Part shown: positions 5,310 through 40,245 of the stretch, piece by piece
Position numbering within the stretch: the first letter of the stretch is position 1
Layout of the letters: each line of letters opens with the position of its first letter
Notes under the pieces: generated by a model
The model's database searches: none
Told to the model about the DNA's origin: nothing
The model's input: only the letters and a program-made list of their open reading frames with translations
Source: a virus
Reading direction: 5' to 3' (one strand)
Virus record (IMG/VR): IMGVR_UViG_3300035523_000137
Coordinates: 1 to 42,206 of that record
Length of the DNA: 42,206 nt
Position numbers and translations under genes: made by a program

Positions 5310-6185
5310 GTGCGCGGGGATCCCCGACGGACACTCCGCCAACGCACCAAGCCACGAGGGCCCGTGACCGCCTCGCCCACTCGCGCCGACCGCTCGGCGC
5401 CCATCTTGCTTGAGGAGCTGCGCACGCCGCCGCGAGACGCCCCGGGCGCCGTCCCCGTGTCCGGCTTGAGGCCCTTCTTCGGCTTCTACGGCGGCAAGTG
5501 GCGCGACGCAGTCAAGCACTACCCAGCACCCCGGTTGGGTACCGTGGTCGAGCCCTTCGCTGGGTCGGCGGGCTACTCCATGCGCTATGCCTCGGCGAAC
5601 GTCGTCCTCGGCGAGATCGACCCCGTCATCTACGGGGTCTGGCGGTACCTGACCCGCGTCAAGGCAAGGGAGATCCTCGCGATCCCTGACCTCGAGCCCG
5701 GGCAGACGGTGAACGACCTCGCCATCCCTCAGGAAGCCCGCTGGCTGGTCGGGTTCTGGATGAACCGGGGCGCCTCGCGGCCGCGGACGAGCCCGTCGGC
5801 GTGGATGCGCGACGGCATCCGCCCCGGCTCCTTCTGGGGCGAGCGGGTGCGCACGACGATCGCGGGGCAGGTCGACGCCATCCGCCACTGGAAGGTCTAC
5901 AACCGCTCCTACGAGCGTCTCCCGTTCCGCGGCGAGGCGACGTGGTTCATCGATCCGCCCTACCAGAAACAGGGCCAGCACTATCACCACGGCGCCGAAG
6001 GCATCGACTTCGCCGCGCTCCGTGCCTGGTGTGAATCGCGGCAGGGCCAGGTCATCGTCTGTGAGAACGCCGGCGCAGACTGGCTGCCGTTCGAGCCGCT
6101 CGCCGACGTGAAGACGACCCGTCGCGGCTCGCGGTCGGTGGAGGTTGCCTGGATCCGCGACGAGGACCCGGTGGGGGGACGATGA
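5310..6185 (+). CDS. D12-class DNA adenine N6-methyltransferase
   Basis: A protein of up to 291 residues that should transfer a methyl group from S-adenosylmethionine to adenine N6. Motifs fit the Dam/D12 class: FFGFYGGKWR near the N-terminus, the SAM loop VVEPFAGSAGYS, and the catalytic FIDPPYQ followed by GQHYHH. The reading frame starts at GTG 5310; a second GTG at 5364, preceded by GAGGG, is an equally good start and removes 18 poorly conserved residues. Its TGA overlaps the next ATG (ATGA at 6182), making it the first gene of a six-gene coupled operon. It may protect self DNA for the downstream helicase-nuclease genes, or be an ordinary phage orphan methylase. Confidence 0.85.
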   Translation: MRGDPRRTLRQRTKPRGPVTASPTRADRSAPILLEELRTPPRDAPGAVPVSGLRPFFGFYGGKWRDAVKHYPAPRLGTVVEPFAGSAGYSMRYASANVVLGEIDPVIYGVWRYLTRVKAREILAIPDLEPGQTVNDLAIPQEARWLVGFWMNRGASRPRTSPSAWMRDGIRPGSFWGERVRTTIAGQVDAIRHWKVYNRSYERLPFRGEATWFIDPPYQKQGQHYHHGAEGIDFAALRAWCESRQGQVIVCENAGADWLPFEPLADVKTTRRGSRSVEVAWIRDEDPVGGR

Positions 6186-6694
6186 GCAACGCGTGGACGA
6201 CGCGCCTTCACACGGCGTTCGTGGGCGCGCTCGATGGCCGCGTCTCAGCGGCCGGCGATGTCCGGCGCAAGCCGCTCGATCTCGACCTCGTCCCGCCGCT
6301 GCCCGGCCGCGTTCGCCTCTACATGTACTCGCTGGTGGCGGGCGGGCCGACGCGCGCCAGGGAGTACAAGGCGATCCTGCGTGTTCCCGGACAGGAGAGG
6401 GGCGAATACGGCTCGTTCGAGCACGCCGACGGGCGACTCACTCTGCTCGTCGCGCATCGGTCCGACCTGGACGTGTTTGTGCTATGGGACGCGACCCTCC
6501 ACCGGACCTTCAAGTGGGCGGGCAACATCCAGGTGCACTCCGACACCGTGCTCGACGCGGCAGCCACGGGCTGGGCCGAGCAGCGTCGACCGCTCACATC
6601 GGGGGTGGATGAGGTAGTCCTCGCCTGCACTAGCCGGCACCTCCCGCGGGCCATCGAGCGGCGCGTGGCGTGGACGGGCGGGATCCGGGGATGA
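6182..6694 (+). CDS. Unknown 170-aa protein, possible restriction-associated domain
   Basis: A 170-residue single-domain protein with a G-rich ribosome site (GGGGGG at 6174-6179) and ATGA overlaps on both sides. The central block EYKAILRVPGQERGEYGSF and the hydrophobic strand DLDVFVLWDATLHRTFK alternate like a beta-rich substrate- or DNA-recognition domain. I recall similar sequence in proteins encoded beside DNA methylases and restriction enzymes, but cannot verify it. No complete PD-(D/E)XK triad is evident. By position it could be a specificity or modification-sensing subunit of the operon. Confidence 0.6.
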   Translation: MSNAWTTRLHTAFVGALDGRVSAAGDVRRKPLDLDLVPPLPGRVRLYMYSLVAGGPTRAREYKAILRVPGQERGEYGSFEHADGRLTLLVAHRSDLDVFVLWDATLHRTFKWAGNIQVHSDTVLDAAATGWAEQRRPLTSGVDEVVLACTSRHLPRAIERRVAWTGGIRG

Positions 6695-8817
6695 CGATGG
6701 GGCTCGACGGTCTCGACCTGCTCACGTCGTACCATCGCGGCGAGAACAACATCGCCGAGGAGTTCTACCTCCCCGCGATGCGGCGGGCGACGCGTTACGA
6801 CCGGGCGGTCGGCTTCTTCCGGAGCGCGGCGTTCATCATCTCGTGGCCGGCCCTGCGCGACTTCGTGGCCCGCGGGGGCAGGATGCGAGTCCTGTGCTCG
6901 CAGGTGCTCAGCCCCGAGGACATCGGCGCCTTGGACGAGGGGTACGCCGCGCGCATCGACGTGCAGGTCGCCGCGCGCCTGCGCGCCGAGGTCGCCAGCC
7001 TCCTGGCTGACCCGGAGATGGGGCAGCCGGCGCGGATCCTGGCCGCGCTCGTGGGGTCGGGTGTGATCGAGTTCCGGGTCGCGATCTGGCGGCCGTCGGA
7101 CAAGGGTCCCCTCTCCAGGATCTTCCACGACAAGCTCGGCTTCTTCCGCGACGACGCTGGCGCCGTCGTGATGTTCAAGGGATCGATGAACGAGACGTGG
7201 ATGGGGCTCGCGGCCGACGGGAACCTCGAGTCCGTCGACGTAGCCCTCTCGTGGTTCGACGGTCGCGAGCGTGAGCGAGTGGAGCGCGAGGACGCCTATT
7301 TCGAGCGCATCTGGGACGGGACGTACCCGGGGCTGATCGTCCGGCCATTCCCGGACACGGCGCGCGACGACCTCGTCCGGGCGGCCGACCCGGACTGGGA
7401 GGGGAGCATCGAGCGGATGCTGCGCGACTCGGCCGGCGAGCCAGAAGACGAAGGGGACCTGGACCCGCTGCGACTGGGCCGGCCGCTAATGAGGCACCAG
7501 ACCGACGGTCTCGAGGCGTGGCGCACCAACGGACGGCGCGGCATCTTCGCGTTCGCAACGGGAGCAGGCAAGACCTTCACGGCACTCATCGCGGCGGAAG
7601 AGTCGATCACTCGATACGGTGAGGTGCCGGTCATCGTCGTGCCCGACCGCACGCTGTTTGACCAGTGGCTCCGAGACGTCATCCCCTTCGCGGATCGCCT
7701 TGACGCGAGGCTCCTCCGGGTCGGGTCGGGCAACAACCGGTGGCGCGACTACCTGCGGTCGTGGACCGCTCCTGGCGCGGGCCGGCGCATCGTCCTTGCC
7801 ACGCTGCCCACTGCGCGGTCGGAGGACTTCCGGCGGCGTCTTGCGGGCGGGCGTCACCTGCTGCTCATCGGCGACGAGGCCCACAGGCTCGGCTCCCGAG
7901 GCGGCCAAGCTCTGCTTGACGAAGCGCTGTTCGGGCCGAGACTCGGGCTGTCGGCGACGCCAGAGCGAGCCGGTGACCAAGTGGGGACTGCGGCCATCCT
8001 CGGCTTCTTCGGTGGCGTTCTCGAGCCGCGCTTCACGCTCGACGACGCCATTGCCGCCGACGTGCTCACGCCGTACTTCTACCGCCCGCACAGGGTTGAG
8101 CTCTCGGACGACGAGATTGAACAGTGGCGCGAGGTCTCCCGGCGGCTTGCGCGGGCGATGTTCGCAGGCGGTGAGCCCGCCGACGGCGGCATCCCGCGCA
8201 GCGCGGAGATGCTGCTGTTCGAGCGCGCCAGGATCGTGAAGGCTGCGGCGGCGAAGGTGCCGCTCGCCGTCGACATCCTGTCCGCGGAGTACCGGCCCGG
8301 CCAGCGCTGGATCGTGTACTGCGACTCCGAGGCCCAGCTAGCCGACGTCCGGGGTGCGCTCCGCGCCGCCGGGTTCACCCCCCGGGCCTACACATCCGCA
8401 ATGCCCGCGGACCGCGAGGCGACCATCCGCTGGTTCACGGAGATCGGCGGGGTCCTCGTTGCCATCCGGTGCTTCGACGAGGGGGTCGACATCCCCGGGA
8501 TCACCCACGCGCTGATCCTCGCTTCGTCGAAGAACCCGCGGGAGTTCATCCAGCGGCGAGGCCGGGTGCTGCGCAAGGCGGACGGCAAGACGCTCGCGTA
8601 CGTCCACGACGCGATCGTCGTCCCGCCCCCGCCGCGCGCCGGCGAGGACGCGCAGCCCGACCCGATCACTGCGGGAGAACTCTCCCGAGCTCTACAGTTC
8701 GCACAAGGTGCGTCCAACCACGGTGCCGCAGCCGACCTGCTCGATATCGCGATCGACGCGGGGATCGACTGGCGCACGATGTTCTCCATGGGGGTCGAGG
8801 ACCAAGACGATGACTGA
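6691..8817 (+). CDS. PLD-family nuclease fused to SF2 DEAH helicase
   Basis: A 708-residue protein from ATG 6691, which overlaps the upstream stop as ATGA. Residues ~10-215 look like a phospholipase D-type nuclease domain: IFHDKLGFFRD (His146, Lys148, Asp154) followed by FKGSMNET (Ser165, Asn167). Residues ~260-660 are a superfamily 2 helicase with a Q-like RHQTDGL, Walker A FATGAGKT (288-295), GDEAHRL (DEAH 395-398) and LSATPER (420-426), then C-terminal EGVDIPG and IQRRGRVLRK arginine-finger motifs. It is probably a DNA translocase-nuclease effector. The architecture matches helicases annotated as restriction components of DNA phosphorothioation clusters, although no sulfur-modification genes are present here. 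Confidence 0.85.
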   Translation: MTMGLDGLDLLTSYHRGENNIAEEFYLPAMRRATRYDRAVGFFRSAAFIISWPALRDFVARGGRMRVLCSQVLSPEDIGALDEGYAARIDVQVAARLRAEVASLLADPEMGQPARILAALVGSGVIEFRVAIWRPSDKGPLSRIFHDKLGFFRDDAGAVVMFKGSMNETWMGLAADGNLESVDVALSWFDGRERERVEREDAYFERIWDGTYPGLIVRPFPDTARDDLVRAADPDWEGSIERMLRDSAGEPEDEGDLDPLRLGRPLMRHQTDGLEAWRTNGRRGIFAFATGAGKTFTALIAAEESITRYGEVPVIVVPDRTLFDQWLRDVIPFADRLDARLLRVGSGNNRWRDYLRSWTAPGAGRRIVLATLPTARSEDFRRRLAGGRHLLLIGDEAHRLGSRGGQALLDEALFGPRLGLSATPERAGDQVGTAAILGFFGGVLEPRFTLDDAIAADVLTPYFYRPHRVELSDDEIEQWREVSRRLARAMFAGGEPADGGIPRSAEMLLFERARIVKAAAAKVPLAVDILSAEYRPGQRWIVYCDSEAQLADVRGALRAAGFTPRAYTSAMPADREATIRWFTEIGGVLVAIRCFDEGVDIPGITHALILASSKNPREFIQRRGRVLRKADGKTLAYVHDAIVVPPPPRAGEDAQPDPITAGELSRALQFAQGASNHGAAADLLDIAIDAGIDWRTMFSMGVEDQDDD

Positions 8818-9010
8818 ACGCGACGACTTGCTCGCCGTGGTGACTGCCGCGCGGGACGCGCTCCACCCCGAGATCGACGACGGATTCCTCACCGATGTGC
8901 TCGATGCGGAGCGGGCCAACCCCGACCAGGAGAACGCCGAACAAGCGGCCGCGGCCCTGCGTTCCGTTGAGGCTGCAGCAGACAGCGCTTTGGCGAGGAG
9001 CGCCCGCTAA
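8810..9010 (+). CDS. Small acidic helical protein of the defence-like operon
   Basis: A 66-residue protein starting at ATG 8810 inside the end of the helicase gene (8-base overlap). Its TAA shares a base with the ATG of the ATPase gene (TAATG at 9008-9012). It is acidic and Ala-rich (EIDDGFLTDVLDAERANPDQ, then a long helix), with no known motif. Double coupling makes it very probably real. It could be an assembly or regulatory subunit bridging helicase and ATPase. Confidence 0.7.
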   Translation: MTERDDLLAVVTAARDALHPEIDDGFLTDVLDAERANPDQENAEQAAAALRSVEAAADSALARSAR

Positions 9011-10962
9011 TGCTCTGGCTGTCCCGAGTCGAGATCGACGGCTTCGGCCCCTACGCCAAGCGCACCGAGTTCACGTTCCCGGACGTGCCGGGCGTAGTCA
9101 TCGTCCATGGCCTCAACAATCGCGGGAAGACGAGCCTTCTCAACGCGATGTACTTCGCGTTCTTCGACATCGTCCGCGACCGGGATCTGCGTCCGTGGCC
9201 CCTCGTCGAGGCGGAGAACGAAGAGAACGCCGCCGCCGGGCAGCACGGGTTCTCGGTCAAGCTCGTATTCCGCTTCGAGGGCGCGACCTACGAGCTCGAC
9301 CGGCGCGTCGCGCTACGCCGCGGCATCGCGAAGCCAGCGGTCGACGAGGACTACGAGCGCTCCTGGTTCCTCGCCCGCGACGGCGACCAGCTGGACTCGC
9401 TCGAGGCGGCCCGGACGATGAGCCGCGTCTTGCCGCAGGACGTCGCCCGCTTCTTCCTCTTCGACGGCGAGCTGCTCACCGAGTACTCGCGGCTTCTCGA
9501 CGACGCCGACATCGCGGGGCGCAAGATCTCCGCAGCGATCGAGATGATCCTCGGCGTCCCGGTTCTCAAGGCGGCCCGCGCGCACGTCTCCGCCGCCGCC
9601 GAGGCTGCAGGAAGGGCCGTCGAGCGCGAGGCTGCCAAGGATGCGCAAACCGCGCAGATCGGCGAGGCCATCCGGCGCACACGCGAGGCGCGCGATGCCC
9701 ACATCGCCGAGCGCGGGCGCAAGCAAGATGACCTTCAGGCGCACGCCGCTGACCTCGAAGAGGTTGACGGCTACCTTCGCGCCCGGGATCGCTACCGCGA
9801 TGCGATGGAGCGCCGGGAGCGGGCCGAGAAGGCCCGCGACGCCGCACGCGACGAGGAGGCCCGTCTGCGGGACCAGTTGCGGACGCAGATGTCGGACGCG
9901 TGGCGAACGGTCGTCGGCGACAAGGTGCGGGAGGCGCGCGAGGCCGCGTCGGACTCGGTCGCCGGGCTGATCGCAGAGGTGGGGCTGGGCCTCCGGATCG
10001 GTGCGATCGAGGCGTGCCACTGCGGGACATGCGACCAGGATGTGCCGCCGGACGTGATCACGCGCCTCAAGGCCTTGCTGCCCGCTGGTGCCAGGCCGGG
10101 CGACGCGGCGACCCCTGTGGGCATCGCCGCCTTCGGCCGCTCCAAGGTTCTGAACGCTTTCCGCGAGACGGACGTCCGGCCGGCCGTGACCATCCTTGCG
10201 GCAGGGATCGAGCGCGCCCGGATGGAGCAGATCGCGCGGGCCGACGAGATCCGTGACCTCGACGCCGACCTTGGCCACGCGGACGAGGACACCCTTCGCG
10301 ACAAGAGCACGACACGAGCGGCGCTCCTGGCCAAGATCGCCGGGGCCGAGAAGGCAATCGAAGATGAGACACGCGAGATCGACGCGGCGACTGCCTCGAT
10401 CACCCGCATGAACGGCTTGCTCGAGGCAGCCGGCGATTCGCCGCTCGCCGCCTTCAAGCGGCGAGCGGCCTTCCTGACGGCGGCAGGCGAGGTGTTCGAG
10501 TCGTCCGTCGAGCGGTTCAAGTCGGACTTGCGCGACAAGGTGGAGGCGACGTCCTCGGCGTACTTCGCGCGGATGACCACGGAGCCCGACTACACGGGGC
10601 TCCGGATCAACGAGTCCTACGGGCTCACTGTGGTCCACCGCGACGGCCGCCTCGTCCGGCGGCGCGCCGCGTCGACCGAGCAGGTCGTGGCCCTCGCGCT
10701 CATGGGCGCCATCCAGGCGAACTCGCCCCTCAAGGGCCCGATCATCATGGACACCCCGTTCGCCCGCCTCGACCCCTACCACACGGCCAAGGTCGTGCAG
10801 GTGGTGCCGGACATGGCGCAGCAGGTGATCTTGCTGGTACAGGAGGGCGAGCTGCGGCGCGACGAGGCGGAACGCCTGCTCGGGACCCGGCTCGTCTATG
10901 AGTTCACCCTCCATCGCGAAGGTGCGTTCGAGACGTCCGTCACTGGAGGTGCGCCGGCATGA
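9010..10962 (+). CDS. DndD/Rad50-like SMC ATPase
   Basis: A 650-residue ABC/SMC-type ATPase. The N-terminus has RVEIDGFGPY and Walker A GLNNRGKTS (34-42), then FFLFDGELL near 155, as in DndD. Two long Arg/Glu/Ala-rich coiled-coil arms flank a zinc-hook-like apex CHCGTC (Cys336, Cys338, Cys341). The C-terminal lobe has a signature-like region (RRRAASTEQVVALALMGAI) and Walker B GPIIMDTPFARLD (577-589). DndD belongs to the phosphorothioation machinery, where it is thought to open or structure DNA. Here it is coupled to a helicase-nuclease instead of DndC. It could equally be a defence SMC-like sensor of DNA ends. Confidence 0.85.
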   Translation: MLWLSRVEIDGFGPYAKRTEFTFPDVPGVVIVHGLNNRGKTSLLNAMYFAFFDIVRDRDLRPWPLVEAENEENAAAGQHGFSVKLVFRFEGATYELDRRVALRRGIAKPAVDEDYERSWFLARDGDQLDSLEAARTMSRVLPQDVARFFLFDGELLTEYSRLLDDADIAGRKISAAIEMILGVPVLKAARAHVSAAAEAAGRAVEREAAKDAQTAQIGEAIRRTREARDAHIAERGRKQDDLQAHAADLEEVDGYLRARDRYRDAMERRERAEKARDAARDEEARLRDQLRTQMSDAWRTVVGDKVREAREAASDSVAGLIAEVGLGLRIGAIEACHCGTCDQDVPPDVITRLKALLPAGARPGDAATPVGIAAFGRSKVLNAFRETDVRPAVTILAAGIERARMEQIARADEIRDLDADLGHADEDTLRDKSTTRAALLAKIAGAEKAIEDETREIDAATASITRMNGLLEAAGDSPLAAFKRRAAFLTAAGEVFESSVERFKSDLRDKVEATSSAYFARMTTEPDYTGLRINESYGLTVVHRDGRLVRRRAASTEQVVALALMGAIQANSPLKGPIIMDTPFARLDPYHTAKVVQVVPDMAQQVILLVQEGELRRDEAERLLGTRLVYEFTLHREGAFETSVTGGAPA

Positions 10963-11598: not shown

Positions 11599-11856
11599 AT
11601 GGACGGCGAATACAACCTGCGATGGTCATTCGATGATCGGCTAGATCGGTCGGTCACGACGGCTGCGGGTCGCGACATGCTCGTCCCACAGTCGTACCGA
11701 GAGCGCGAGCACTCGAACACTCTCGCTGGCCTGCTCGACCTCACAGCTCCGAACTCGATCGAGGCGGCCCCGGCCGGGCGGAGCACCGAGGAGACGGTCA
11801 GGCCGGAAGAGGAGAGCCTCCCGGTCCGAGTCGCCACTTCGACTGCCAGCTGGTGA
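11599..11856 (+). CDS. Possible small ORF of unknown function
   Basis: An 85-residue frame from ATG 11599 with a good AGGAG site six bases upstream (11588-11592). The product begins MDGEYNLRWSFDDRLDRSVT, is polar, and resembles nothing I know. Its 3-prime end overlaps the convergent serine proteinase gene by 59 bases. The ribosome site is the main argument for it; the overlap and the lack of family similarity argue against. Confidence 0.35.
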   Translation: MDGEYNLRWSFDDRLDRSVTTAAGRDMLVPQSYREREHSNTLAGLLDLTAPNSIEAAPAGRSTEETVRPEEESLPVRVATSTASW

Positions 11857-12925
11857 CTTGCATCGTCGCGTCGTCGAGCTGCGTGGCGACCACCCCGATC
11901 GTCGTCCCGGCAACCGAGTTGATGTGGCCGACGCGCCCGACCCGTGCCTTCTTGCCGTTGACTTCGCCCTCGCCCTCGACGCGAAGGTTGGCGTAGGCGT
12001 TGTAGAGCGCCCACATCGCCTCTGCCTCGGCGGCAGTGGCGTCGCGCACCTTGAGGCCGATCTCCTTAGCCTCTTTGCGGTTGATCTGGTACAGGTGCGA
12101 CTTGTAGAAGTCGCTGAGCTTGTCCACGATCGACTTGATCTCGTCGGCCTGTGCGCCCGGATCCATGTGGGTTGAGAGGACGCGCTCGCAAACCTGTTGG
12201 GCGAGCGCCCACGACTGCTCAAGGGCGCCGATGGCGAGCGGATGAACCTTCTCGAACAGCGCCGTATAGATGGTGGCCGCCACCTCGGGTGGGATGTCCT
12301 CGCCGAGTTCGCGCTGGAGGAACTTGAGGACGTGGCGGAGGTCCTGAACGGAGATCGGGATAGGGACCTTCTTGCCGTTGGGCTGGTCCTCGGTCGGGAG
12401 TAGCGGATGGCGGCGCGTCGGATCAACAGGTCCGAGCTCCGACATCTCCGTCATCACAATCTCGTCCGCTCCGACCGCCGTGAGCGTGGCCGCGCTGTGT
12501 GCCCTGTATGGAACAAGCACCACGAAGCGCGTCGCGAACTCCCGGAACAACGAGACGATCTTCCACGGGACTTCCGTCGCTCCCCCTCGACTGCTTAGCC
12601 AGAGGCCCAGCGTGTCGTGGCGTCCGACGCGACGGAGGTGCTCGTAGAGGTGGAGCATCTGTTCGTCCGCGAGAGCAGCGTTGCTCCCATCATCCAGGAA
12701 GTAGCTGATGACGGGACTCCCGAAGGCCTCGGTGACGGTGGCGAGCACGGGATCGATGGCCGTCGCGATGAAGGCGTAATCCGGCTCCTGCGACTGCCTC
12801 TGCTGCTGCTGCTGGGGACCGGGCACCGCGGCTCCTCCTGGGCTTCCTGAGGACGGCAAGGGCTGGCGAGCGGGTCTGCCACGTTGGGGCGGCGTCCGTC
12901 GCTGCTGGCGCTGTTTCGCTGGCAT
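11798..12925 (-). CDS. ClpP-fold serine proteinase, SDH/SppA-like
   Basis: A 375-residue protein of the serine dehydrogenase proteinase (SDH) type, a ClpP/crotonase-fold family related to SppA. The first ~48 residues are basic and low complexity (a Gln/Pro run at 37-46). The core has LWLSSRGGATEVPW, with Gly114-Gly115 as the likely oxyanion site, and RAHSAATLTAVGADEIVM with Ser144 as the expected nucleophile; TEMSELGPVDP follows as usual. No signal peptide or membrane helix is evident, so it is probably cytosolic. The start is ATG 12925; the frame is open to 13027, but that would run into the divergent gene. It shares a 72-base promoter gap with the HNH-like gene. Its role in a phage is unknown. 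Confidence 0.8.
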   Translation of the reverse strand: MPAKQRQQRRTPPQRGRPARQPLPSSGSPGGAAVPGPQQQQQRQSQEPDYAFIATAIDPVLATVTEAFGSPVISYFLDDGSNAALADEQMLHLYEHLRRVGRHDTLGLWLSSRGGATEVPWKIVSLFREFATRFVVLVPYRAHSAATLTAVGADEIVMTEMSELGPVDPTRRHPLLPTEDQPNGKKVPIPISVQDLRHVLKFLQRELGEDIPPEVAATIYTALFEKVHPLAIGALEQSWALAQQVCERVLSTHMDPGAQADEIKSIVDKLSDFYKSHLYQINRKEAKEIGLKVRDATAAEAEAMWALYNAYANLRVEGEGEVNGKKARVGRVGHINSVAGTTIGVVATQLDDATMQVTSWQSKWRLGPGGSPLPA

Positions 12926-12997
12926 CGCCCGAGCGTACACCGCGGCGCGTGACGCGGGCGGGACAGCGTTCGTCGCCACGGGCACTACTCTGCTTGG

Positions 12998-14536
12998 GTG
13001 ACGTGTCCATGCGGAGGCAACTGTCAACCGCGCCGACTCCCGGAGTGGCTAGTCGCGCAACTCAACGACGCGCGAAGCGGTCTCCTGGCGATTGCGGGGA
13101 TCGTCTCCGAAGGCTTCCTGTGCCCACTGTGCCTGCGGATCCTTCCGGAGTCCTGTGCCACGCTTGCACATGCGCCCAGCAAGGAGGTTGGAGGCAGCGG
13201 CCAGACCTTCCTATGCAAGGCGTGCAACAGCTTCCTGGGCACGGCGTATGAGGCGGCCGCCGACGAGGTCATCTCGTCCATCGAGGAAGCGAAGGCAACG
13301 GGGTCCGTTGCGCAGAAGATCACGCTTCGCCATCGGACCGGACCGCACCTCTACCTGGATGCTGTGTTCTCAGGCTCCACGGATGCGGACAGGGGCATCA
13401 CAGCTGAGCCGATCCGGCGCAACCCCGATGCGGAGAAGCGCTTCGGGGACGCACGCAAGCCGGGCGAGCCGCTCTTCCTCACCTTCCGAGTGCCAAGCGA
13501 AGATCACGTAAAGCTCGCCTACCTGTCGTGGGCATTCCTGCTCTTGTTCCGGCGCCTGGGCTACGCGTTCATCTTCAGCGTGTCGGGCAGGCTGGCACGG
13601 CTGTCGCTGCTGACGGGCAAAGCAACCGACCTCAGTCCCGCCTACTTCTTCACGTACGGCGAGTTCACTGGCGAGGCTTCCCCAGCCACCACGGGTCTCC
13701 TGGTGCGGGCCGAGGCTCCGGACTTCGACCGGTTTCCGCCCATTGCGATCGGCGCTGAGATTGGCAGCACCGTAATCGCCCTGCCGCTGACGGACGACCC
13801 CTTGGGCGCATACGGCCACCTACTCGAGTACACGGCAGATGACAGTCGGCTGCTCGTCCTGCCCTTCGATGAGATCTATCCGGATCACTCCACGGCCATG
13901 CCGGGCATCGCCGCATACCGCTGGCAGAGCGCGGTCGGCACGCTCCATCGGGTCCTTGGTGGCACGCGGAATGAGTTGACAAGCGATCTCGCGGCGGCCG
14001 CGGCGCCGCCGTCCAGCCGGCCGAAGGTCCGCGGGCCGTTGCGCGACAACCCGGACTGGCCACCACCCCCTCTGCCACTTCCCCCGAGGCCTTGGCAGGC
14101 GACATGGCGCGCGACAGCAACCGAATACGTTGCCGCCCGAGGTGTTGCCGTTGCGCCATCGGCGAGTGATGTCGACGACGACGCGTGGATCGCCGAACTC
14201 GCGCTCGTTGACGCGGTTGCCGCGCGGCACGTTGCCGACATGCGCGACCTCTTCCTGCGCGGCGAGGATCCCCGGCGTCGGACTGAGCCACGGGGCGTCG
14301 AGGTGATGCGAGACCTGAACCGAGTAGCTGGCGAGGTGGACAACACGGCACGGGTCGTTGCCGGTGACTTCCGGCTCGTCGACCCAGCCGAGGATTTCTC
14401 ATCGCTGTCAGTGCGCGTCCTGTGCGGCGGCGACGATCTCGTCGTCGGTCCCCACTACGCGTACGAGACGCTCGTCTTCGCCCTGCGCGACGCACTTGGG
14501 GCCGGGAGTCGGCGAGAGGGTAGGCCTACGCCTTAA
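12998..14536 (+). CDS. HNH_5-like zinc protein, large unknown
   Basis: A 512-residue protein from GTG 12998. It opens with a Cys-rich segment (CPCGGNC) and then an HNH-like treble clef: LCPLC (Cys42, Cys45), LAHAPSKEVGG (His58) and LCKACNSFLG (Cys73, Cys76, Asn77), a spacing that fits the HNH_5 family. The remaining ~420 residues are unrecognised, with a Pro-rich linker near 350-370 and a helical C-terminal part. It could be a nuclease effector or a zinc-binding scaffold. It is divergent from the SDH-type proteinase and converges with the tail gene, overlapping it by 11 bases, which marks it as an inserted cargo gene. Confidence 0.65.
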   Translation: MTCPCGGNCQPRRLPEWLVAQLNDARSGLLAIAGIVSEGFLCPLCLRILPESCATLAHAPSKEVGGSGQTFLCKACNSFLGTAYEAAADEVISSIEEAKATGSVAQKITLRHRTGPHLYLDAVFSGSTDADRGITAEPIRRNPDAEKRFGDARKPGEPLFLTFRVPSEDHVKLAYLSWAFLLLFRRLGYAFIFSVSGRLARLSLLTGKATDLSPAYFFTYGEFTGEASPATTGLLVRAEAPDFDRFPPIAIGAEIGSTVIALPLTDDPLGAYGHLLEYTADDSRLLVLPFDEIYPDHSTAMPGIAAYRWQSAVGTLHRVLGGTRNELTSDLAAAAAPPSSRPKVRGPLRDNPDWPPPPLPLPPRPWQATWRATATEYVAARGVAVAPSASDVDDDAWIAELALVDAVAARHVADMRDLFLRGEDPRRRTEPRGVEVMRDLNRVAGEVDNTARVVAGDFRLVDPAEDFSSLSVRVLCGGDDLVVGPHYAYETLVFALRDALGAGSRREGRPTP

Positions 14537-16232: not shown

Positions 16233-18170
16233 TCAGGCTGCCTTGATGATGTAGTTGGCGACGATCGAGGGCTGGACCACGGACAGCGCCGCGTGGTCGC
16301 CGACCGCGGCGCCGGTGTGGGCGGACACCGCGGCGCCGGTGTGGGCGGAGTGCGCGTCGACCGCGGCGCCGGCATGGCTCTGGGCGGCGTGGTCGCTGTG
16401 CGCGCCCGGCTGGGTGACCGTGTGATCGGACGGTTGGGTGACCGAGTGCGCGCTGACACCGACGGCCTGGGACTTGGCCACCGCGTACGACCCCGACGCC
16501 GACGACACGGCAGCCGTCCAGTTGCGCGTCCGGGCGGTGCCGGACCCGAACACGCCCGCGTCAAGCGAGCTGATCGCGTGGGTGTCATCGATGATGAACG
16601 GCAGCTCGTGGCTGTGGTTCGAGTGCGCGGCTACTGCCGCGCCCGCGTGTGCCGAGACGTCGGTGCCGGTGTGCGCGCTGTGCGCCAGCGCCGCGTGCGC
16701 CGAGGGCTGGGTCACCACGTGGTTCGCGTGCGCCGCGGGCTGGGTCACCGTGTGGGCGGCCGGCTGGGTGACCGCGTGGGCCGACGGTGTCGCGGTCTTC
16801 GCGCCGCTCGTCTCGCCGAGCGTGTCGAAGTCGCTGTCCCCGGCCTTCAAGCCCACCGGCACCCGGCCCCGGTAGTCGGGGAGGGAGAAGTGCGTCCCGT
16901 CGGCGGCCCCGTAGGTCGTGCCGATGACCGTGAACAGGGCCGGGAAAGCCGACCGCAGGAGCGACGCGCCGTCGCAGGTGAGCCAGTCGGTGGGCGGGGC
17001 AGCCGCGAGCCAGAGGACGACCGACCCCACGGGCACGCCGCCCGATGCGGCGCTGACCGCCCCGTCGGCGGTCGCCGCGGCGCGGCCCGTTGAGGCCTGC
17101 GACGCCAGGGTCGGGAACGGCCGCCCGAGCGTCGCCCTGACTGTGGGCGCGGCGGCACTCCGCTCGAAGGCCTTGGTGACCTCGACGATGCGGGCTGGGT
17201 ACGCGAGGCCGCGCTCGGCGTTGCGCACCGTGACGACGTCACCGACATCCCAGTGCTCGCGGTACCGGAAGCCGCCGTACTGATGGACGTCGGCCTCGAG
17301 GCTCGTCTCGGCTCCGGTCGCCGCGAGGTACGCGTCGCCCCGCTGGGCGAGCACGGTCGTCTCGCCGAGCTCCACGTCGCGCGCGTCGAGGAACGCTTCG
17401 CGCCGGTCGAAGCCGGATGGCTCGTTGCCTGACCAGCGCGTCACGAGATCGCGGGCGGTGCCCTCGCCCTGGCCAGCGACGAGTGCGACCGTCTTGGCGT
17501 CGATGACCGAGTCGAGCTCCTCCCACCGTTCGAGCGTCTCGAACGCGAAGTCGAAGAACACGGACGCCGAGCGGTCGATGCCGTCGACGACGTCGAACAC
17601 GAAGTCGCCACTGCCGGGGTCGTAGGTGATCTCCCAGCCGATCCCCGCGAGGAGGCCGATCTCGCGGATGAGGTCGAGCACGGTCTGGTAGCGCCCGTTG
17701 ACGGTGACGGTCGGGCCCCGGGCCGCGTCCGCCGCGGCGACGAGTCCGGGCACCGCTCGCGCGGGCGTGGCGAGGTCGGCGGCGTGGGCGCGGAGGTAAT
17801 GCTTCATCGCGGTCTCGGCGGCGACGCCGGTCTGGCGGTCGTGGCTCTCGCCCACTGGCGGCTCGACGAGGCGCTCGGCCATCGCGATCCCCTCGAGCGA
17901 GCGCCCCGTGACCGTCATCTCGTCGTTGCGCGTGCTCCCCTCGGCGACGCTCGCGATCTGCTCGATGAGGAACACGAGGTCGCCCTCGTCTGGCAGGTAG
18001 AGGAGGCGCTTGGTGGCGAGCTCGCTGGCCCACAGGCGCGTCCGGTTGATGACGAGCTCGAAGGTGTCCATCGCGACGTACCGGCGCACGTACGAGAGGC
18101 GCTCCCAGCTCTGGTCGACGAGCCCCAGGGTGGCGCGGGTCACGGGGTCCAGGACGTAGGCGCGAGTCAC
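16233..18170 (-). CDS. Gp37-like tail protein fused to a collar domain and His-rich shaft
   Basis: A 645-residue protein from GTG 18170. Residues 1-~345 resemble the ReqiPepy6 gp37-like siphophage tail protein (MTRAYVLDPVTRATLG, then WERLSYVRRYVAMDTFELVI). Residues ~370-440 are a phage collar domain (VLWLAAAPPTDWLTCDG, then FSLPDYRGRVPVGL). The C-terminal ~200 residues are a degenerate heptad-like repeat rich in AH.VTQP and SAHTGAAV units, ending VQPSIVANYIIKAA. At DNA level a 22-bp unit repeats at 16304 and 16328 (period 24). It probably forms the central baseplate and part of the fibre. The fused layout is less usual than separate proteins. Confidence 0.8.
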   Translation of the reverse strand: MTRAYVLDPVTRATLGLVDQSWERLSYVRRYVAMDTFELVINRTRLWASELATKRLLYLPDEGDLVFLIEQIASVAEGSTRNDEMTVTGRSLEGIAMAERLVEPPVGESHDRQTGVAAETAMKHYLRAHAADLATPARAVPGLVAAADAARGPTVTVNGRYQTVLDLIREIGLLAGIGWEITYDPGSGDFVFDVVDGIDRSASVFFDFAFETLERWEELDSVIDAKTVALVAGQGEGTARDLVTRWSGNEPSGFDRREAFLDARDVELGETTVLAQRGDAYLAATGAETSLEADVHQYGGFRYREHWDVGDVVTVRNAERGLAYPARIVEVTKAFERSAAAPTVRATLGRPFPTLASQASTGRAAATADGAVSAASGGVPVGSVVLWLAAAPPTDWLTCDGASLLRSAFPALFTVIGTTYGAADGTHFSLPDYRGRVPVGLKAGDSDFDTLGETSGAKTATPSAHAVTQPAAHTVTQPAAHANHVVTQPSAHAALAHSAHTGTDVSAHAGAAVAAHSNHSHELPFIIDDTHAISSLDAGVFGSGTARTRNWTAAVSSASGSYAVAKSQAVGVSAHSVTQPSDHTVTQPGAHSDHAAQSHAGAAVDAHSAHTGAAVSAHTGAAVGDHAALSVVQPSIVANYIIKAA

Positions 18171-19066: not shown

Positions 19067-21070
19067 TCAGGTGCCTCCGAGCGACCAGGCGAGGGCAGCT
19101 CGTCGGAGGGCGCGGCGGGTCTCGCGCTCGACGTCGCCCGGCTGGACCCCGTTGATCGTCTGGCTGCCGATGAGCGGACCCGATCGTCCGGATCCGCCTG
19201 CGAGCAGGTCGCGGCTCTGGGCGGCGGTGAAGACTTCGGTCCCTCGCGGAAGTCGGGCGAGCTCGGGCCCGCGCTCGCCGAGCATCGCCCAGCCACCGCC
19301 GAAGTCGCGGGTGCCGACAGCCAGCCGCGGGATGGTGCCGAGATTGAGCCCGTTCCAGTCGAACGGACCGACGGCGACGTCGCCGACGCCGACCCGCGGG
19401 ATGTGGATCTGGATGCCGTTGAGCGCCCGGATCATCCCGTTGACGGCGTCGATCACGGTGTTGATCGCGCCCTTGATGATCGAGGTGATCCCGTCCCAGA
19501 CGACCTTGATCCCGCGCTTCAGGCCGTCGAACGCATCGCCGATGCCCTTGGTCACCCCGGTCGCCGCGTCCCAGGCGGTCTGCCAGACCACGCCGATCGC
19601 GTCGAACACGGTCGACATGACCTCGAGCAGGACGCTCGCGGCGGCGCCAACCACCGGGAACGCGACGTCGGCGACCTTCGTGATGACCGGCATGACCGCC
19701 TTGAACACCGCCGCGACCCCGTCCATCGCGCTCTTCACGAAGCCTGCGACCTGGCCGATCACCTTGGAGATGAGTGGCCAGTTGTCCGAGATCCAGCCCT
19801 GGACGAACGCGAAGGCACGCTGCAGCGCGGGCAGGACGTTCTCCGCCCACGTCGCGAAGATGCTCTGCAGGGGCGGCAGGATGTTGGCGACGAGCCAGTC
19901 GATCACCATCCCGAACGCCGGGACGACCTCGTTGGAGAAGACGGCAAAGGCCGCCGCCAGCGGTGGGATGACGTTCGCGACGAGCCAGTCGATGGCCGTC
20001 CCGATCGCGCCGAAGGCCGCATCGACCGTGGCCTCGATCGCGGGCAGGTTGGCCGTGATCCATGCGAGCATGCCGTCGAGGACCGGGAGGAGCTTCTCGC
20101 CGACCGCTACGGTCGCGGTGTTGAAGATCTGCGACCACAGGTCGCCGAGGTCCTTGGTGTCGGCAGTCGCCGCCGCGATCGTGTCGCTGCCGTTCATGAT
20201 CGAGGCCACGAGGTCGTCAGTGGCGAAGCGGCCCTCGAGGATCGCTGCGGCGAGGTCGGGGCCTGCGCGCAGGCCGAACGTCTTGATGCTCTCGCCGACC
20301 GGGTCGGCCGATGCGCCGATCGCCTCGATCTTGGTGCGCAGGGCCTCGCCCATGTCGGCAGCCTTCACGCCCTCGCCAGCGAGCGTCTTCACGCCGAACT
20401 TGAGGCCCGAGAGCATTGTCTCGGTGTTGACGCCCTCCTTCTCCCACTTGCCCAGCAGCGCGGCGGATTCCTCGAAGGAGAAGCCCAGCAGGCGCATCGG
20501 GGCGCCGAAGTCGACGACGAGCTGCTGGAGCCGGTCGACGCCGATCCCGGTCAGCTGGCTCGCCCGGAAGACCTCATCGAGCGTCTTCGCCTGATCCTGC
20601 GTCGCGATCGACCAGTCACCGAACAGCCGCGTCGACGCGCGCACGTTGTCGTTGACGTCGGTCTTCGTGATCCGGGAGAAGTCGAGGAGGTTGACCGCGA
20701 GGTCTTCGAGCGTGTCCCCGGTCGCGCCGGTCCGGGTGTTGAGCTCGGCGATCACCGTGCCGACGGTCGCAAGGTCCTCCGGCACGCGCTTCGCCGCCCG
20801 GCCGAACGTGTCCACGAGGCCCTCGAGCGCCTTGCCGGTCGCGCCCGTCCCGGCACGGATCGCATCCACGCCGGCGTCGTAGTCGGTGACCATCTTGACC
20901 GCCGCCGCGCCGACCGCCAGGAGCGCCGCCCCGATGACGAGGGCGGACGCCTTGGCGACGTCCGCGAGGCTGGCAAAGAGGCCCTGGCTGCTCTTGACCT
21001 CCGCCTCGAACTTGCTCTTGTCCAGCGCGAGCGAGGCGTAGAGCGAACCGACCGAGATCCCCGACGCCAC
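19067..21070 (-). CDS. Tape measure protein
   Basis: A 667-residue protein from GTG 21070 that sets tail length. The N-terminus (SVGSLYASLALDKSKFEAEV) and the TP901-type core (TDYDAGVDAIRAGTG, then TKTDVNDNVRASTRLFGDW and GFSFEESAALLGKWEKEGVN) are typical. The middle (330-560) has several hydrophobic stretches and Trp-spaced repeats (AIDWLVANVIPPLAAAF and VIDWLVANILPPLQSIF). The C-terminus carries the usual AMLGERGPELARLPRGTEV. The modest length predicts a tail of roughly 100 nm. It is preceded by the tail chaperone frameshift pair. Confidence 0.9.
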   Translation of the reverse strand: MASGISVGSLYASLALDKSKFEAEVKSSQGLFASLADVAKASALVIGAALLAVGAAAVKMVTDYDAGVDAIRAGTGATGKALEGLVDTFGRAAKRVPEDLATVGTVIAELNTRTGATGDTLEDLAVNLLDFSRITKTDVNDNVRASTRLFGDWSIATQDQAKTLDEVFRASQLTGIGVDRLQQLVVDFGAPMRLLGFSFEESAALLGKWEKEGVNTETMLSGLKFGVKTLAGEGVKAADMGEALRTKIEAIGASADPVGESIKTFGLRAGPDLAAAILEGRFATDDLVASIMNGSDTIAAATADTKDLGDLWSQIFNTATVAVGEKLLPVLDGMLAWITANLPAIEATVDAAFGAIGTAIDWLVANVIPPLAAAFAVFSNEVVPAFGMVIDWLVANILPPLQSIFATWAENVLPALQRAFAFVQGWISDNWPLISKVIGQVAGFVKSAMDGVAAVFKAVMPVITKVADVAFPVVGAAASVLLEVMSTVFDAIGVVWQTAWDAATGVTKGIGDAFDGLKRGIKVVWDGITSIIKGAINTVIDAVNGMIRALNGIQIHIPRVGVGDVAVGPFDWNGLNLGTIPRLAVGTRDFGGGWAMLGERGPELARLPRGTEVFTAAQSRDLLAGGSGRSGPLIGSQTINGVQPGDVERETRRALRRAALAWSLGGT

Positions 21071-21071
21071 G

Positions 21072-21329
21072 TCAGTTCACCCGGCCAGCCGGACGGCCGA
21101 AGAAGCCTGCGAGGACGGACTCGGACTCCGCCGGCGTCCGCGCCATCCGCGAGGCCCCGCTCCCGCCCATGTGGTGACGGGCGACCTGGCGGTTGGCGAC
21201 GGCACTCTGCGGGCCGAGCCCGCGGACGAGGACCATGAACCGGCGCAGGGTGAGGCGCGGCAGGTCGGTCACGAGGTCGATCCGGTACTCGCGCATGAAG
21301 TCGGCCTCGACGAGCGCCCAGCTCTCCAT
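21072..21329 (-). CDS. Tail assembly chaperone, downstream (T) part
   Basis: An 85-residue frame starting at ATG 21329, which overlaps the stop of the upstream chaperone as ATGA. It begins MESWALVEADFMREYRIDL, the sequence that normally lies inside the frameshifted chaperone extension of siphophages. The same frame is open upstream to about 21370 and reads SGEPADAAPDPFDL directly into it. It is therefore most likely made as a -1 frameshift fusion with the gene at 21329-21697 rather than only from its own ATG. Confidence 0.8.
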   Translation of the reverse strand: MESWALVEADFMREYRIDLVTDLPRLTLRRFMVLVRGLGPQSAVANRQVARHHMGGSGASRMARTPAESESVLAGFFGRPAGRVN

Positions 21330-21697
21330 CAGGTCGAAGGGGTCCGGCGCTGCGTCCGCCGGCTCGCCCGATTTGGGGGTGGGCTGGCCTCGGCGGCGTA
21401 GATGTCCATGACCGATGTGATCAGCGCCTGGAGCTCGGCGACGGTGAGGCGGTGGACCCCGATGAGCTCGTCGAGGACCGCCTTGCCGAACAGGCCCTCG
21501 GCCAGGCTCGCCACCTCGTCGGCCGGCACGCTCGTCGCGCCGCTCCGGCTGAGCCGGATCCCCTCGAGCGCGACCGAGGCCGGCGGACTCGATGGCAGGG
21601 CGTAGTCCTGGCCGCCGATGCGGATGATGAGCGGACGCCCCTGCTGCTCGGCGCGATACGCGTCGAAGTCGATGAGCAGCGGGTCAGGGGTGATCAT
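21329..21697 (-). CDS. Tail assembly chaperone, upstream (G) part
   Basis: A 122-residue protein beginning MITPDPLLIDFDAYRAEQQG, with a body ending ALITSVMDIYAAEASPPPNR. It is expected to bind the tape measure protein and recruit tail tube subunits. A slippery heptamer at codons 108-109 allows a fraction of ribosomes to make a longer fusion with the downstream frame. Its ATG overlaps the tail tube stop (ATGA). Confidence 0.8.
   Translation of the reverse strand: MITPDPLLIDFDAYRAEQQGRPLIIRIGGQDYALPSSPPASVALEGIRLSRSGATSVPADEVASLAEGLFGKAVLDELIGVHRLTVAELQALITSVMDIYAAEASPPPNRASRRTQRRTPST
21371..21377 (-). other. Programmed -1 frameshift slippery site CCCAAAT
   Basis: On the coding strand the sequence is C CCA AAT in the frame of the upstream chaperone, a canonical X-XXY-YYZ heptamer. 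Slipping back one base yields CCC AAA and enters the frame of the downstream chaperone 14 codons before the normal stop. The position near the end of the first chaperone and just before the tape measure gene is where this conserved event occurs in tailed phages. No pseudoknot was modelled. Confidence 0.8.
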
Positions 21698-22137
21698 CAG
21701 GCGTGGGTGACCGGGCCCGAGATCGTGAGCTTGGCCGACCAGGCCGCGGGATCGTTGTGGCCGCCGCCCGCAGTCGTCACCTCAGCCGAGGCGAGGAAGC
21801 TGTCGACGGTGCCGCCAGGACTCGTGACCCGGAAGCTGCCCATGGCCGCGAGCCCCACCGCTCGGGCGAGCGTCTCGACCGCCGCCTGGCCCGGGTCGCG
21901 GTCGCCCGTGAGGGCGTCTTCGAGGTGGTGGCCGGCGATCGTGAACTCCAGACCGCGCTCCATGACCAGGTGCTCGGCCACCCCGTTCGAGTCGAAGTCG
22001 GTCGTGTCGGCGCGGTTCGTCGATGGCGACGGGGTGAGCGAGTTGAGGCCCCCGATCGGCGTCCACGCCGGCGTCCCCGGGTATGCCGTGTCGATCTCGA
22101 TCGTGAAGTCCCGCGCCGGGATCTTGGTGACGGCCAT
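21697..22137 (-). CDS. Major tail (tube) protein
   Basis: A 146-residue protein from ATG 22137 with a strong AAGGAG ribosome site, as expected for an abundant structural protein. The sequence MAVTKIPARDFTIEIDTAYP, then TPIGGLNSLTPSPSTNRADT and FDSNGVAEHLVMERGLEFTI, follows the tail tube fold (WxxIGGLxSLxxSPSxxxxDTTDFDSxG). Its position between neck genes and tail chaperones agrees. The frame is open upstream to 22455, but the ribosome site and homology favour this start. Confidence 0.85.
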   Translation of the reverse strand: MAVTKIPARDFTIEIDTAYPGTPAWTPIGGLNSLTPSPSTNRADTTDFDSNGVAEHLVMERGLEFTIAGHHLEDALTGDRDPGQAAVETLARAVGLAAMGSFRVTSPGGTVDSFLASAEVTTAGGGHNDPAAWSAKLTISGPVTHA

Positions 22138-22165
22138 GGTCAGTCTCCTTTCCGCTGGCGGGGCA

Positions 22166-22522
22166 TCAGCCCGGCCAGCCGCTCTTGAACGCCTCGGCGA
22201 TGACCCGGCCGATCGACTCGGCCTCGGCGTCGATCGTCTCCTCCAGCCACCGCCCCGAGCGCCCGATCCCGAAGGTCCAGTCGTCCGCGCGGGCGTGCAG
22301 GACGCGGGCGTACCAGCGGCTGTACCCGATCGCCACGCCCCGCTCGTCGGCCCGAAGGCGCGCGCTCCGGGCCAACCTGCCCGTCCGGTACGGCACGCGC
22401 CCGCGGGCGAGCTCGAGCAGGAGCTCGCCGCCTCGGACGGTCGTCTCGCGGCCAAGCTGCTCCGCGGTCGAGAGGGCGCGGTCGGGGTCCCACCGCACCC
22501 GGGTGATCACGAGGCCGCTCAC
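22166..22522 (-). CDS. HK97 gp10-like tail completion / neck protein
   Basis: A 118-residue protein starting at GTG 22522, overlapping the previous stop (GTGA). Features shared with the HK97 gp10 group are ELARGRVPYRTGRLARSARL followed by AIGYSRWYARVLHARADDW and a helical C-terminus (WLEETIDAEAESIGRVIAEA). This type of protein sits between head-tail connector and tail tube genes and helps join the tail. Confidence 0.7.
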   Translation of the reverse strand: MSGLVITRVRWDPDRALSTAEQLGRETTVRGGELLLELARGRVPYRTGRLARSARLRADERGVAIGYSRWYARVLHARADDWTFGIGRSGRWLEETIDAEAESIGRVIAEAFKSGWPG

Positions 22523-28703: not shown

Positions 28704-29195
28704 TCAGCCCACATCGCCAACCACCCGAAGCCGCGGCGGAAGCCCGATGTCGGCGGTGAGCGAGTCGAGCGAGCGCGCCCCATCGATCCGCAGGCCGACG
28801 CGAGCCGAGGGGGAGAGGCCGAGCTCGCGGGCGAACTGGCGGACCTCGTCGGCGTTGTCGCGGGCGACCTGGTGGAGCGGGTTCTTCACGAGGTTCCCGT
28901 CGCGCCGGGTGAGGGGTCCGGTCTGCGCGTACAGCCGGGCCGCCGCCGCGTAGCGGCTGACCGCCTCGCAGTAGCAGCGCAGGACGTCGGCGTCCGCGCT
29001 CCGGATCACCCCGGTGTGGCCCATGTCGCGGATGACCCGCCGCCAGACGACCTTGGCGTCCGGGTCCATGTCGGTCGGCATCCTGGGAAGGTCCGCCGAC
29101 GGAATCGGCTCGTGGACGTTGAGCCGCGACGGGCGCGTCTCGCCCCGAAGACGCTTGACCTTCGTCGGCGTCGGCGCCGGGCCCCGCCTACCCAT
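28704..29195 (-). CDS. Terminase small subunit, P27 family
   Basis: A 163-residue DNA-recognition subunit. It begins GRRGPAPTPTKVKRLRGETR, the hallmark start of P27-type small terminases (GRxGxxPxPxxLKxLxGx), then LPRMPTDMDPDAKVVWRRVI and a C-terminal LGLSPSARVGL. The start lies 8 bases inside the preceding methyltransferase gene. It probably binds a cos or pac site that I could not locate. Confidence 0.9.
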   Translation of the reverse strand: MGRRGPAPTPTKVKRLRGETRPSRLNVHEPIPSADLPRMPTDMDPDAKVVWRRVIRDMGHTGVIRSADADVLRCYCEAVSRYAAAARLYAQTGPLTRRDGNLVKNPLHQVARDNADEVRQFARELGLSPSARVGLRIDGARSLDSLTADIGLPPRLRVVGDVG

Positions 29196-30552
29196 CGACG
29201 CGCTCCGCAGTGCGCCCGGTGAAGCGCTGCCAGCGCTCGATCGCGACCTGGGCGTACTTCGGGTCGATCTCCATCGCGTAGCAGCGCCGGCCCAGGGTCT
29301 CGGCGGCCATCAGGGTTGTGCCCGATCCCGAGAACGGCTCGTACACCGCCTCGCCGGGTCGGAGGTGGTTGCGGATCGGAATCTCGGACAGGAGGACCGG
29401 CTTCTGAGTCGGGTGGTCCTCCTTCTCCTCCTTGGACCCGCCGCCGATCCGCTTGGGCGACGGCGCGCGCCAGATCGTCGCCTGGTCGCGCTCGCCGATG
29501 AACAGGTTCGGGACGCCCGGTCGGCGGACCACGACGCACGGCTCGTGGTTCCAGTGGTACCAGGAGCGCCCGACCGAGAAGAGGCCCTTGTCCCAGATGA
29601 TCTGGCCCGCGAGCTCGAACCCGATGCGCTCGAGGCCCGAGAGGACCTCGAGCGTGTGGATGCTCGCGTACCAGACGTAGCCAACCTGGAGCGAGGGCAC
29701 GAGCGCGTACGCCTCGGACCAGTCGGCGCGGACGTCCATGCTGATGCTGGTGTTGCGATGCCCGGCGGTGTGGTGACCGCGCTTGGCCTTCGGGGCGGCC
29801 TCGCCCTCGGACTCGGGGACCTCGGCCATCATGTACGGCTTCGCCGCGCCGGCGACCACGCCCCAGCCGTTCACCCGCTTGCGCGGCCCGTTGTAGACGC
29901 CGTCGCGCCAGGTCTGGTCGAGCTGGACGCCGTATGGCGGGTCGGTCGCGAGCAGCGTTGGCGCTGCTCCGTCGAGGAGGCGCTCGACGGCGGCCGGGTC
30001 GGTCGCGTCGCCGCATAGGATCCGGTGGTCGCCGAGGCGGTACAGGTCGCCCGGTTGGACGTACGGCTCCTCGGGTGGCTCGGGGAGCTCGTCGGGGTCG
30101 GTCAGCCCAGCCTTCGGCTCGCTGCCGCGCAGGTCGCCGAGCAGGGCGAGGAGGCCCGCGTCGTCGACCGTGACGTCCGCCAGGAGCTCTCGCAGCTTCT
30201 CGTCGTCGCGGCCGGCCATCGCGCCGATCGGGTCGAGCGTCGCGAGGACGAGCGCCTCCTCGTCAGCATCCAGGTCGACGTACAGAACCGGGACGCTCGG
30301 CTCGCCGCGGGACAGGGCAAGCGCGACCCTGGCGTGGCCGTCGACGACGAACCCGGTTCGCCGGTTGACGAGGACCTGCTGCACCCAGCCGACCGCATCG
30401 AGCGCGCCGGCGAGGGCGTCCTGCTGCGCCTTGGGGTGGATCCGCCAGTTGGCGGGGTTGGCGAGGAGCCGGTCCGGCGCCTCCTCGCCGGCCCCGACGA
30501 TCCGGTTGCGCCAGCCCGCCGGGGGTGCGGCGACCGCGGTCTTCGCGCTCAT
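29188..30552 (-). CDS. ParB-like domain fused to N4/N6 DNA methyltransferase
   Basis: A 454-residue fusion. Residues ~25-130 look like a ParB/Srx-type domain (LLANPANWRIHPKAQQDALA, then GFVVDGHARVALALSRGEPS). The rest is a site-specific amino-methyltransferase with LATDPPYGVQ (catalytic DPPY near 217) and, downstream, YEPFSGSGTTLMAAETLGRR, the SAM-binding FxGxG after the catalytic motif (beta-class order). It probably modifies phage DNA to escape restriction or regulate packaging. It is the first gene of the leftward morphogenesis operon, with the small terminase overlapping its end. Confidence 0.88.
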   Translation of the reverse strand: MSAKTAVAAPPAGWRNRIVGAGEEAPDRLLANPANWRIHPKAQQDALAGALDAVGWVQQVLVNRRTGFVVDGHARVALALSRGEPSVPVLYVDLDADEEALVLATLDPIGAMAGRDDEKLRELLADVTVDDAGLLALLGDLRGSEPKAGLTDPDELPEPPEEPYVQPGDLYRLGDHRILCGDATDPAAVERLLDGAAPTLLATDPPYGVQLDQTWRDGVYNGPRKRVNGWGVVAGAAKPYMMAEVPESEGEAAPKAKRGHHTAGHRNTSISMDVRADWSEAYALVPSLQVGYVWYASIHTLEVLSGLERIGFELAGQIIWDKGLFSVGRSWYHWNHEPCVVVRRPGVPNLFIGERDQATIWRAPSPKRIGGGSKEEKEDHPTQKPVLLSEIPIRNHLRPGEAVYEPFSGSGTTLMAAETLGRRCYAMEIDPKYAQVAIERWQRFTGRTAERVDG

Positions 30553-39956: not shown

Positions 39957-40245
39957 ACTCCTGCGGGTCCAGACGGCTTCGAGCAGCCCGCTGCTCGTCC
40001 GTTTGGGCCACACCCTCCGGCTCCGGCAACCGCTCCGCCAGGATCCACACCAGCTGTGCGGTGGTCGTCGCACCGACCTTGGACCGGGCGTTCGCCAGGT
40101 GATGCTTCACGGTCGAGTGTGAGAGACCGAGCCGGTGGGCGGCAGCCTTCTCCGAGCCGGCAGCGAGGACCGCTGCGACCACCCGGAGCTCGCGATCCGT
40201 CGTGCGTTCGCCGGTGGCTCGACTGGCCGGGGGGCGGTCCCTCAC
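39916..40245 (-). CDS. LuxR/GerE-type HTH protein next to the integrase
   Basis: A 109-residue protein from GTG 40245, overlapping the integrase stop (GTGA). The HTH core is LRVVAAVLAAGSEKAAAHRL, then GLSHSTVKHHLANARSKVGA and QLVWILAERLPEPEG. No sensor domain is present. It may regulate integration or lysogeny. Its last 13 codons overlap the convergent membrane gene. A truncated copy is present at 36709-36845. Confidence 0.78.
   Translation of the reverse strand: MRDRPPASRATGERTTDRELRVVAAVLAAGSEKAAAHRLGLSHSTVKHHLANARSKVGATTTAQLVWILAERLPEPEGVAQTDEQRAARSRLDPQEFRSPPRADPGRRR

Follow-up and report, generated by a model that had tools for sequence, protein, structure and literature searches.

The window, by which we mean the whole stretch of DNA analysed here (a virus record of 42,206 bases with a GC content of 70.5%), carries a pair of overlapping open reading frames (ORFs) that is very probably a siphophage tail assembly chaperone pair of the lambda gpG/gpGT type, its two frames joined by a programmed -1 ribosomal frameshift. 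This reading had been put forward in an initial annotation made from the sequence, and we regard the question as settled because relatives of the pair keep the -1 relation between the two frames, a slippery heptamer in register and the absence of start codons in the second frame. The result lends support to a predicted fusion protein whose two parts gene-finding programs would report as separate genes.

On the minus strand of the window the genes follow the order terminase, major capsid protein, major tail protein, a 122-aa ORF (ORF 1), the second ORF and tape measure protein, and the position of the pair, flanked by the genes for the major tail and tape measure proteins, is the one characteristic of gpG/gpGT-type pairs (Table 1). 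ORF 1 ends in ...S P P P N R A S R R T Q R R T P S T, and its stop codon overlaps the ATG of ORF 2 in the sequence TGATGG. Both frames match tail assembly chaperone profiles of the PHROG collection, the second at positions 151-197 of the 318 positions of phrog_5813, which is the place expected for a C-terminal extension. AlphaFold2 models built from 50-row alignments have a mean pLDDT of 71.7 for ORF 1 and 75.5 for the second frame, with values below 50 over residues 106-119 of ORF 1, that is, the slip site region and beyond. The best fold match of ORF 1 in BFVD is a tail assembly chaperone (E 1.1e-5); among solved structures in the PDB its best match is weak (3fgx, E 0.69), and a PDB fold search with the model of the T-like part found nothing. 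The Pfam family PF06854 (Phage_Gp15) is matched by 37 of 50 aligned relatives of the second frame with E up to 0.01, and the window's own second-frame protein scores 13.3 bits against it, below the curated cut-off of 23 bits. It is through the PHROG profiles and BFVD, then, that the pair shows kinship to named chaperones, the PDB matches being weak.

Table 1. Coordinates of the chaperone locus and associated features in the window
Feature	Position	Strand	Remarks
Serine-recombinase gene	40242-41798		
Major tail (tube) protein	21697..22137	-	directly upstream of ORF 1; phrog_3884, E 6e-30
Tail assembly chaperone ORF 1 (gpG-like), 122 aa, zero frame	21329..21697	-	phrog_6959, E 6.1e-7; BFVD fold matches
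Shine-Dalgarno-like GAGG, candidate stimulator	21388..21391	-	end 10 nt upstream of heptamer
Slippery heptamer C_CCA_AAT	21371..21377	-	zero-frame register, read from 21377 to 21371; 46 nt before ORF 1 stop
Hairpin CCGGCG-7 nt-CGCCGG, putative stimulator	21344..21362	-	8 nt downstream of heptamer
-1 frame extension (T-like), 99 aa after slip plus stop	21072..21371	-	phrog_5813, E 4.6e-7
Second ORF as read from ATG (MESWALVEAD...)	21072-21329	-	starts inside -1 extension, at 21329
Tape measure protein	19067..21070	-	directly downstream of pair; phrog_991, E 1.6e-47

Several other features of the window were recorded alongside the tail genes. A likely defence or modification operon at 5310-10962, on the plus strand and so opposite to the phage structural genes, contains a type II methyltransferase (PADLOC, E 4e-31), a protein with an MTaX1 domain (Pfam, E 1.4e-11), a PbeA-like helicase (E 1.7e-189) and a PbeC/DndD-like ATPase (E 3.1e-153). 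The minus strand encodes a ClpP-like SDH-type serine protease domain (11798-13027; Pfam, E 2.3e-9) at a distance from the head-tail module, a Gp37-like tail protein (16233-18170) with a collar domain followed by many AH[SDA]xVTQP-like histidine-rich repeats, recognised by eye, and an N6/N4 DNA methyltransferase (29188-30552; Pfam, E 3.8e-16) that adjoins the terminase genes.

Codons 106-110 of ORF 1 are CCA CCC CCA AAT CGG, and the heptamer C_CCA_AAT, contained in codons 107-109 (CCC CCA AAT), falls in the X_XXY_YYZ register of ORF 1. The frame one base back begins CCC AAA TCG GGC GAG..., or (PK)SGEPADAAPDPFDLMESWALVEAD...GRVN, and has its stop codon at 21074-21072; readthrough of the -1 frame from the slip site gives SGEPADAAPDPFDLMESWALVEADFMREY... 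and terminates at that same codon. Heptamers of the form XXX(A/T)3N are rare in so GC-rich a window, and because it holds just 17 of them on both strands (9 on the minus strand) we take the one in the overlap to be more than chance, the probability of an in-register occurrence being approximately 0.7% per 100 nt by rough arithmetic from the window count.

Most ribosomes would read ORF 1 to its stop codon and yield the 122-aa G-like chaperone. A minority, with CCA and AAT in the P and A sites, respectively, would slip one base back (CCA to CCC, AAT to AAA) and read on in the -1 frame, giving a predicted fusion of about 208 aa (109 + 99, with the A-site Asn kept) in which 109 residues of ORF 1 are followed by SGEPADAAPDPFDLMESW.... 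The A-site codon, here that of Asn, is normally decoded ahead of the slip, and the junction to be expected is therefore ...PPPN-SGEP... and not PK-SGEP...; the junction peptide of the fusion would be ...PPPNSGEPADAAPDPFDL.... The initial annotation had placed CCCAAAT at 21371-21377 in the right frame and position, which codons 107-109, the register and conservation in relatives confirm, and had slipped ribosomes entering the MESWALVEAD frame and joining the two ORFs; the -1 frame does read as described and ends at 21072. Its junction joined the frames correctly, but the PK-SGEP... reading is refined by the decoding of Asn before the slip, and its range of 21329-21697 covered ORF 1 but left the second ORF, from the slip site to 21072, outside.

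We compared the window with six close relatives (L002-L007), all of them distinct viral loci, whose second frames show 80-91% identity. The heptamer is present in all seven sequences, as CCCAAAT in the window and as CCCAAAC in the six relatives, always 46 nt ahead of the stop codon of ORF 1, and the codons CCA CCC CCA are unchanged in all seven; elsewhere in ORF 1, third-base differences in one sequence or another are seen in many codons. The 39-nt overlap has too few changes for a verdict on dual coding: counts of synonymous and replacement codons are 2 and 4 in the -1 frame versus 0 and 5 in the zero frame, only a slight advantage in conservation for the former. The ATG of the second ORF in the window is ATC in L005 and L007, which are 80-85% identical to the window and retain the heptamer, and this argues against a rival view in which ORF 2 would be a gene in its own right, reached by re-initiation at the TGATGG overlap. 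In favor of such a gene are the TGATGG itself and the fact that ORF 2, read from its ATG, spans the conserved domain. Against it stand also the conservation of the heptamer in register and the distribution of start codons in a wider set of 130 sequences (the window and L002-L130), found mostly via the chaperone pair itself and representing 98 distinct loci, 85 of which have no ATG, GTG or TTG in the second frame from the slip site to the conserved IEADF motif (the scan began 60 nt upstream where a locus had no slip site). Just before the ATG of the window, inspection by eye found no Shine-Dalgarno (SD)-like motif. We consider re-initiation very unlikely, and a frameshift the far better account of how the second frame is reached.

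The heptamers of the wide set are confined largely to a single register. Within the overlap, an in-register XXX(A/T)3N heptamer is found in 87 of the 98 loci, compared with 17 and 12 in the other two registers, where most are A-runs; for heptamers with X≠Y the count is 49 in register versus 1 and 0. Taking one heptamer per locus, the tally is AAAAAAC 18, CCCAAAC 17, AAAAAAA 15, GGGAAAC 14, GGGAAAA 10, AAAAAAG 6, AAATTTT and CCCAAAA 2 each, and CCCAAAT (the window), CCCTTTG and GGGAAAG 1 each. Conservation of the heptamer in relatives, which the initial annotation had proposed as a test of its own reading, is thereby borne out among both the close sequences (7/7) and, for heptamers of the same type, the distinct loci at large. 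These data also bear on whether it is RNA polymerase, slipping on a C5A3 run, and not the ribosome that shifts the frame. Such slippage is conceivable at the longer A runs of some relatives (e.g. L056 and L074), but the run in the window is merely CCCCCAAA, many relatives have GGGAAAC or CCCAAAC with no long run, and the dependence on register fits codon-anticodon re-pairing, leaving polymerase slippage scarcely credible next to a shift by the ribosome.

Relative to the first ORF, the second occupies the -1 register in 97 of the 98 distinct loci; each of these 97 has, ahead of the conserved W...[I/V]EADF motif and in the -1 relation to it, an ORF no shorter than 108 codons. An iterated chaperone profile matches 96 of these 97 first ORFs, with a marginal result for L130 and no match for L121. 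ORF 1 extends past the beginning of the IEADF motif in 28 of the 98 loci. The frame in the +1 register is longer than the -1 frame in six of the 98, five of which still have, in the -1 frame, an ORF matched by the chaperone profile; L058 is the sole exception to the -1 rule, its first chaperone ORF standing, around position 3010, in a +1 relation to the second that is unique among the 98 and reflects either an indel error or a +1 site. We also assembled an independent set of 46 loci, fetched via the major tail and tape measure proteins and not via the chaperone genes. It contributed 20 new distinct loci with matches to both chaperone profiles, all 20 in the -1 relation; 10 of the 46 lack one or both profile matches, some of them being cut short and others (L144, L147 and L178-L180) long enough. 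That a single gene was broken by a sequencing or assembly indel, which in one sequence from a viral contig record would look alike, is refuted by the same -1 relation in 96 further distinct loci plus these 20 and has a negligible probability.

The 118 distinct overlaps of the two sets (98 + 20) show the interchange of slippery sites among CCCAAAC, GGGAAAC, GGGAAAA, AAAAAAC and GGGGGAA. In the 20 new loci the overlap carries a heptamer of the above type in 8 (L146 among them) and an in-register GGGGGAA in 9, with neither in 3 (L148, L152 and L172). An in-register XXXYYYZ is missing in 11 of the 98 loci, of which five have an in-register GGGGGAA (L008, L107, L109, L117 and L121) and six lack that as well (L058, L071, L104, L112, L119 and L130). 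GGGGGAA replaces XXXYYYZ in 14 overlaps, namely those five and L159, L160, L163, L166-L170 and L173; the similar loci L008 and L009 have GGGGGAA and GGGAAAA, respectively, at the same place, and no GGGGGAA occurs in 27,389 nt of chaperone gene bodies. As reported for the SEA-PHAGES data, GGGGGAA is the only 'fivetwo' form there (PMC10885494), and it is described in corynephage phi16 as well (PMC5506516). CCCAAAT, with T in the last position, is scarce, occurring only in the window and L146 among the loci examined.

Possible stimulators of the slip were considered. An SD-like motif lies 8-17 nt upstream of 19 of 25 CCCAAA-type sites, compared with 2 of 25 at 28-38 nt and 0 of 25 at 48-58 nt, control intervals that belong to the folded region of the protein and whose amino-acid make-up is unmatched to that of the test interval. 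The anti-SD pairing energy peaks 7-18 nt upstream in the CCCAAA and GGGAAA groups, with synonymous shuffles giving about equal values, and 17 collapsed CCCAAA-type sites gave no synonymous-codon signal for an SD-like element (6 lower and 8 higher than shuffles). The SD-like peak is present by position and can be explained by amino-acid choice, codon-level selection receiving no support from the shuffles. Prediction of RNA structure downstream, a check suggested in the initial annotation, did not lend support either: folds of 55 nt and 61 nt were no better than dinucleotide shuffles (z 0.76 and 0.02), no Rfam family matched at 20900-22200 of the window, and the window shows no stable or covarying downstream stem of the kind that, in dnaX-type frameshift cassettes, accompanies an SD-like sequence about 10 nt upstream. 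Both arms of the hairpin, CCGGCG and CGCCGG, are the same in every close sequence (7/7) and show no covariation, and because they never vary their conservation is uninformative. Among 12 more distant relatives that were folded, L033 (z -5.6) and L021 (z -3.0) have a strong fold in the 55 nt after a CCCAAAC heptamer, possibly true stimulatory stems, in contrast to the fold after the heptamer of the window.

A nascent-chain polyproline stall, and not RNA structure, might supply the pause that drives slippage in the clade of the window, an idea we hold to be doubtful. At the slip site the zero frame encodes SPPPN; with the ribosome on the heptamer, the third Pro codon occupies the P site and the Asn codon the A site, and PPPN recurs in L032 and in every one of the seven close sequences. 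Just 8 of the 25 CCCAAA-type sites have a further two prolines ahead of the one in the P site, and a stall of this kind would therefore be at most a local device. If it did operate, slip efficiency, and hence tail assembly, would depend on the host EF-P.

The mechanism is long known and ordinary in long-tailed phages, and the window is a further instance of it with a slightly unusual slippery sequence. The -1 frameshift of the lambda tail assembly chaperone gpG/gpGT was reportedly described by Xu, Hendrix and Duda in 2004. The window resembles lambda in gene order, in the -1 direction, in a heptamer late in the first ORF and in a second frame predicted to be fused to the first; its heptamer is CCCAAAT, and the two are likened by arrangement. 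Pairs of this type are marked also by a fusion made in a small, constant proportion to the short product, and by the absence of both products from the virion. By analogy, the part common to both products may form a coat on the tape measure protein, and recruitment of the tail tube subunit may fall to the T-like part, with slip efficiency setting the ratio of G-like protein to fusion. As treated in the review of Atkins et al. 2016 (PMC5009743), gpG and gpGT of lambda are made near 30:1, G binding the tape measure and T the tail tube; G-T frameshifting is widely conserved, and C_CCA_AAG is highly shift-prone in E. coli. A search limited to part of the full-text literature, with the letters as query, found no paper on C_CCA_AAT in phages, and CCCAAAC together with frameshift and tail returned only unrelated papers from the same body of text.

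Nearer to the window are the Streptomyces phages Picard, Austintatious and ToastyFinz, in which a joined chaperone CDS is annotated at the homologous place, between the major tail and tape measure genes. The GenBank record of Streptomyces phage Alderaan (L132, 1555-2268) has a short chaperone only, without the joined CDS of its relative Austintatious, and is an actual case of the gap that the initial annotation had warned of, namely that annotation as two genes misses the fusion. The T-like part of the Streptomyces phages is homologous to that of the window, with 40-47% identity over the core, and the slippery sequences differ, the heptamer being GGGAAAA in Picard and CCCAAAT in the window, where the ORF 1 stop overlaps an ATG.
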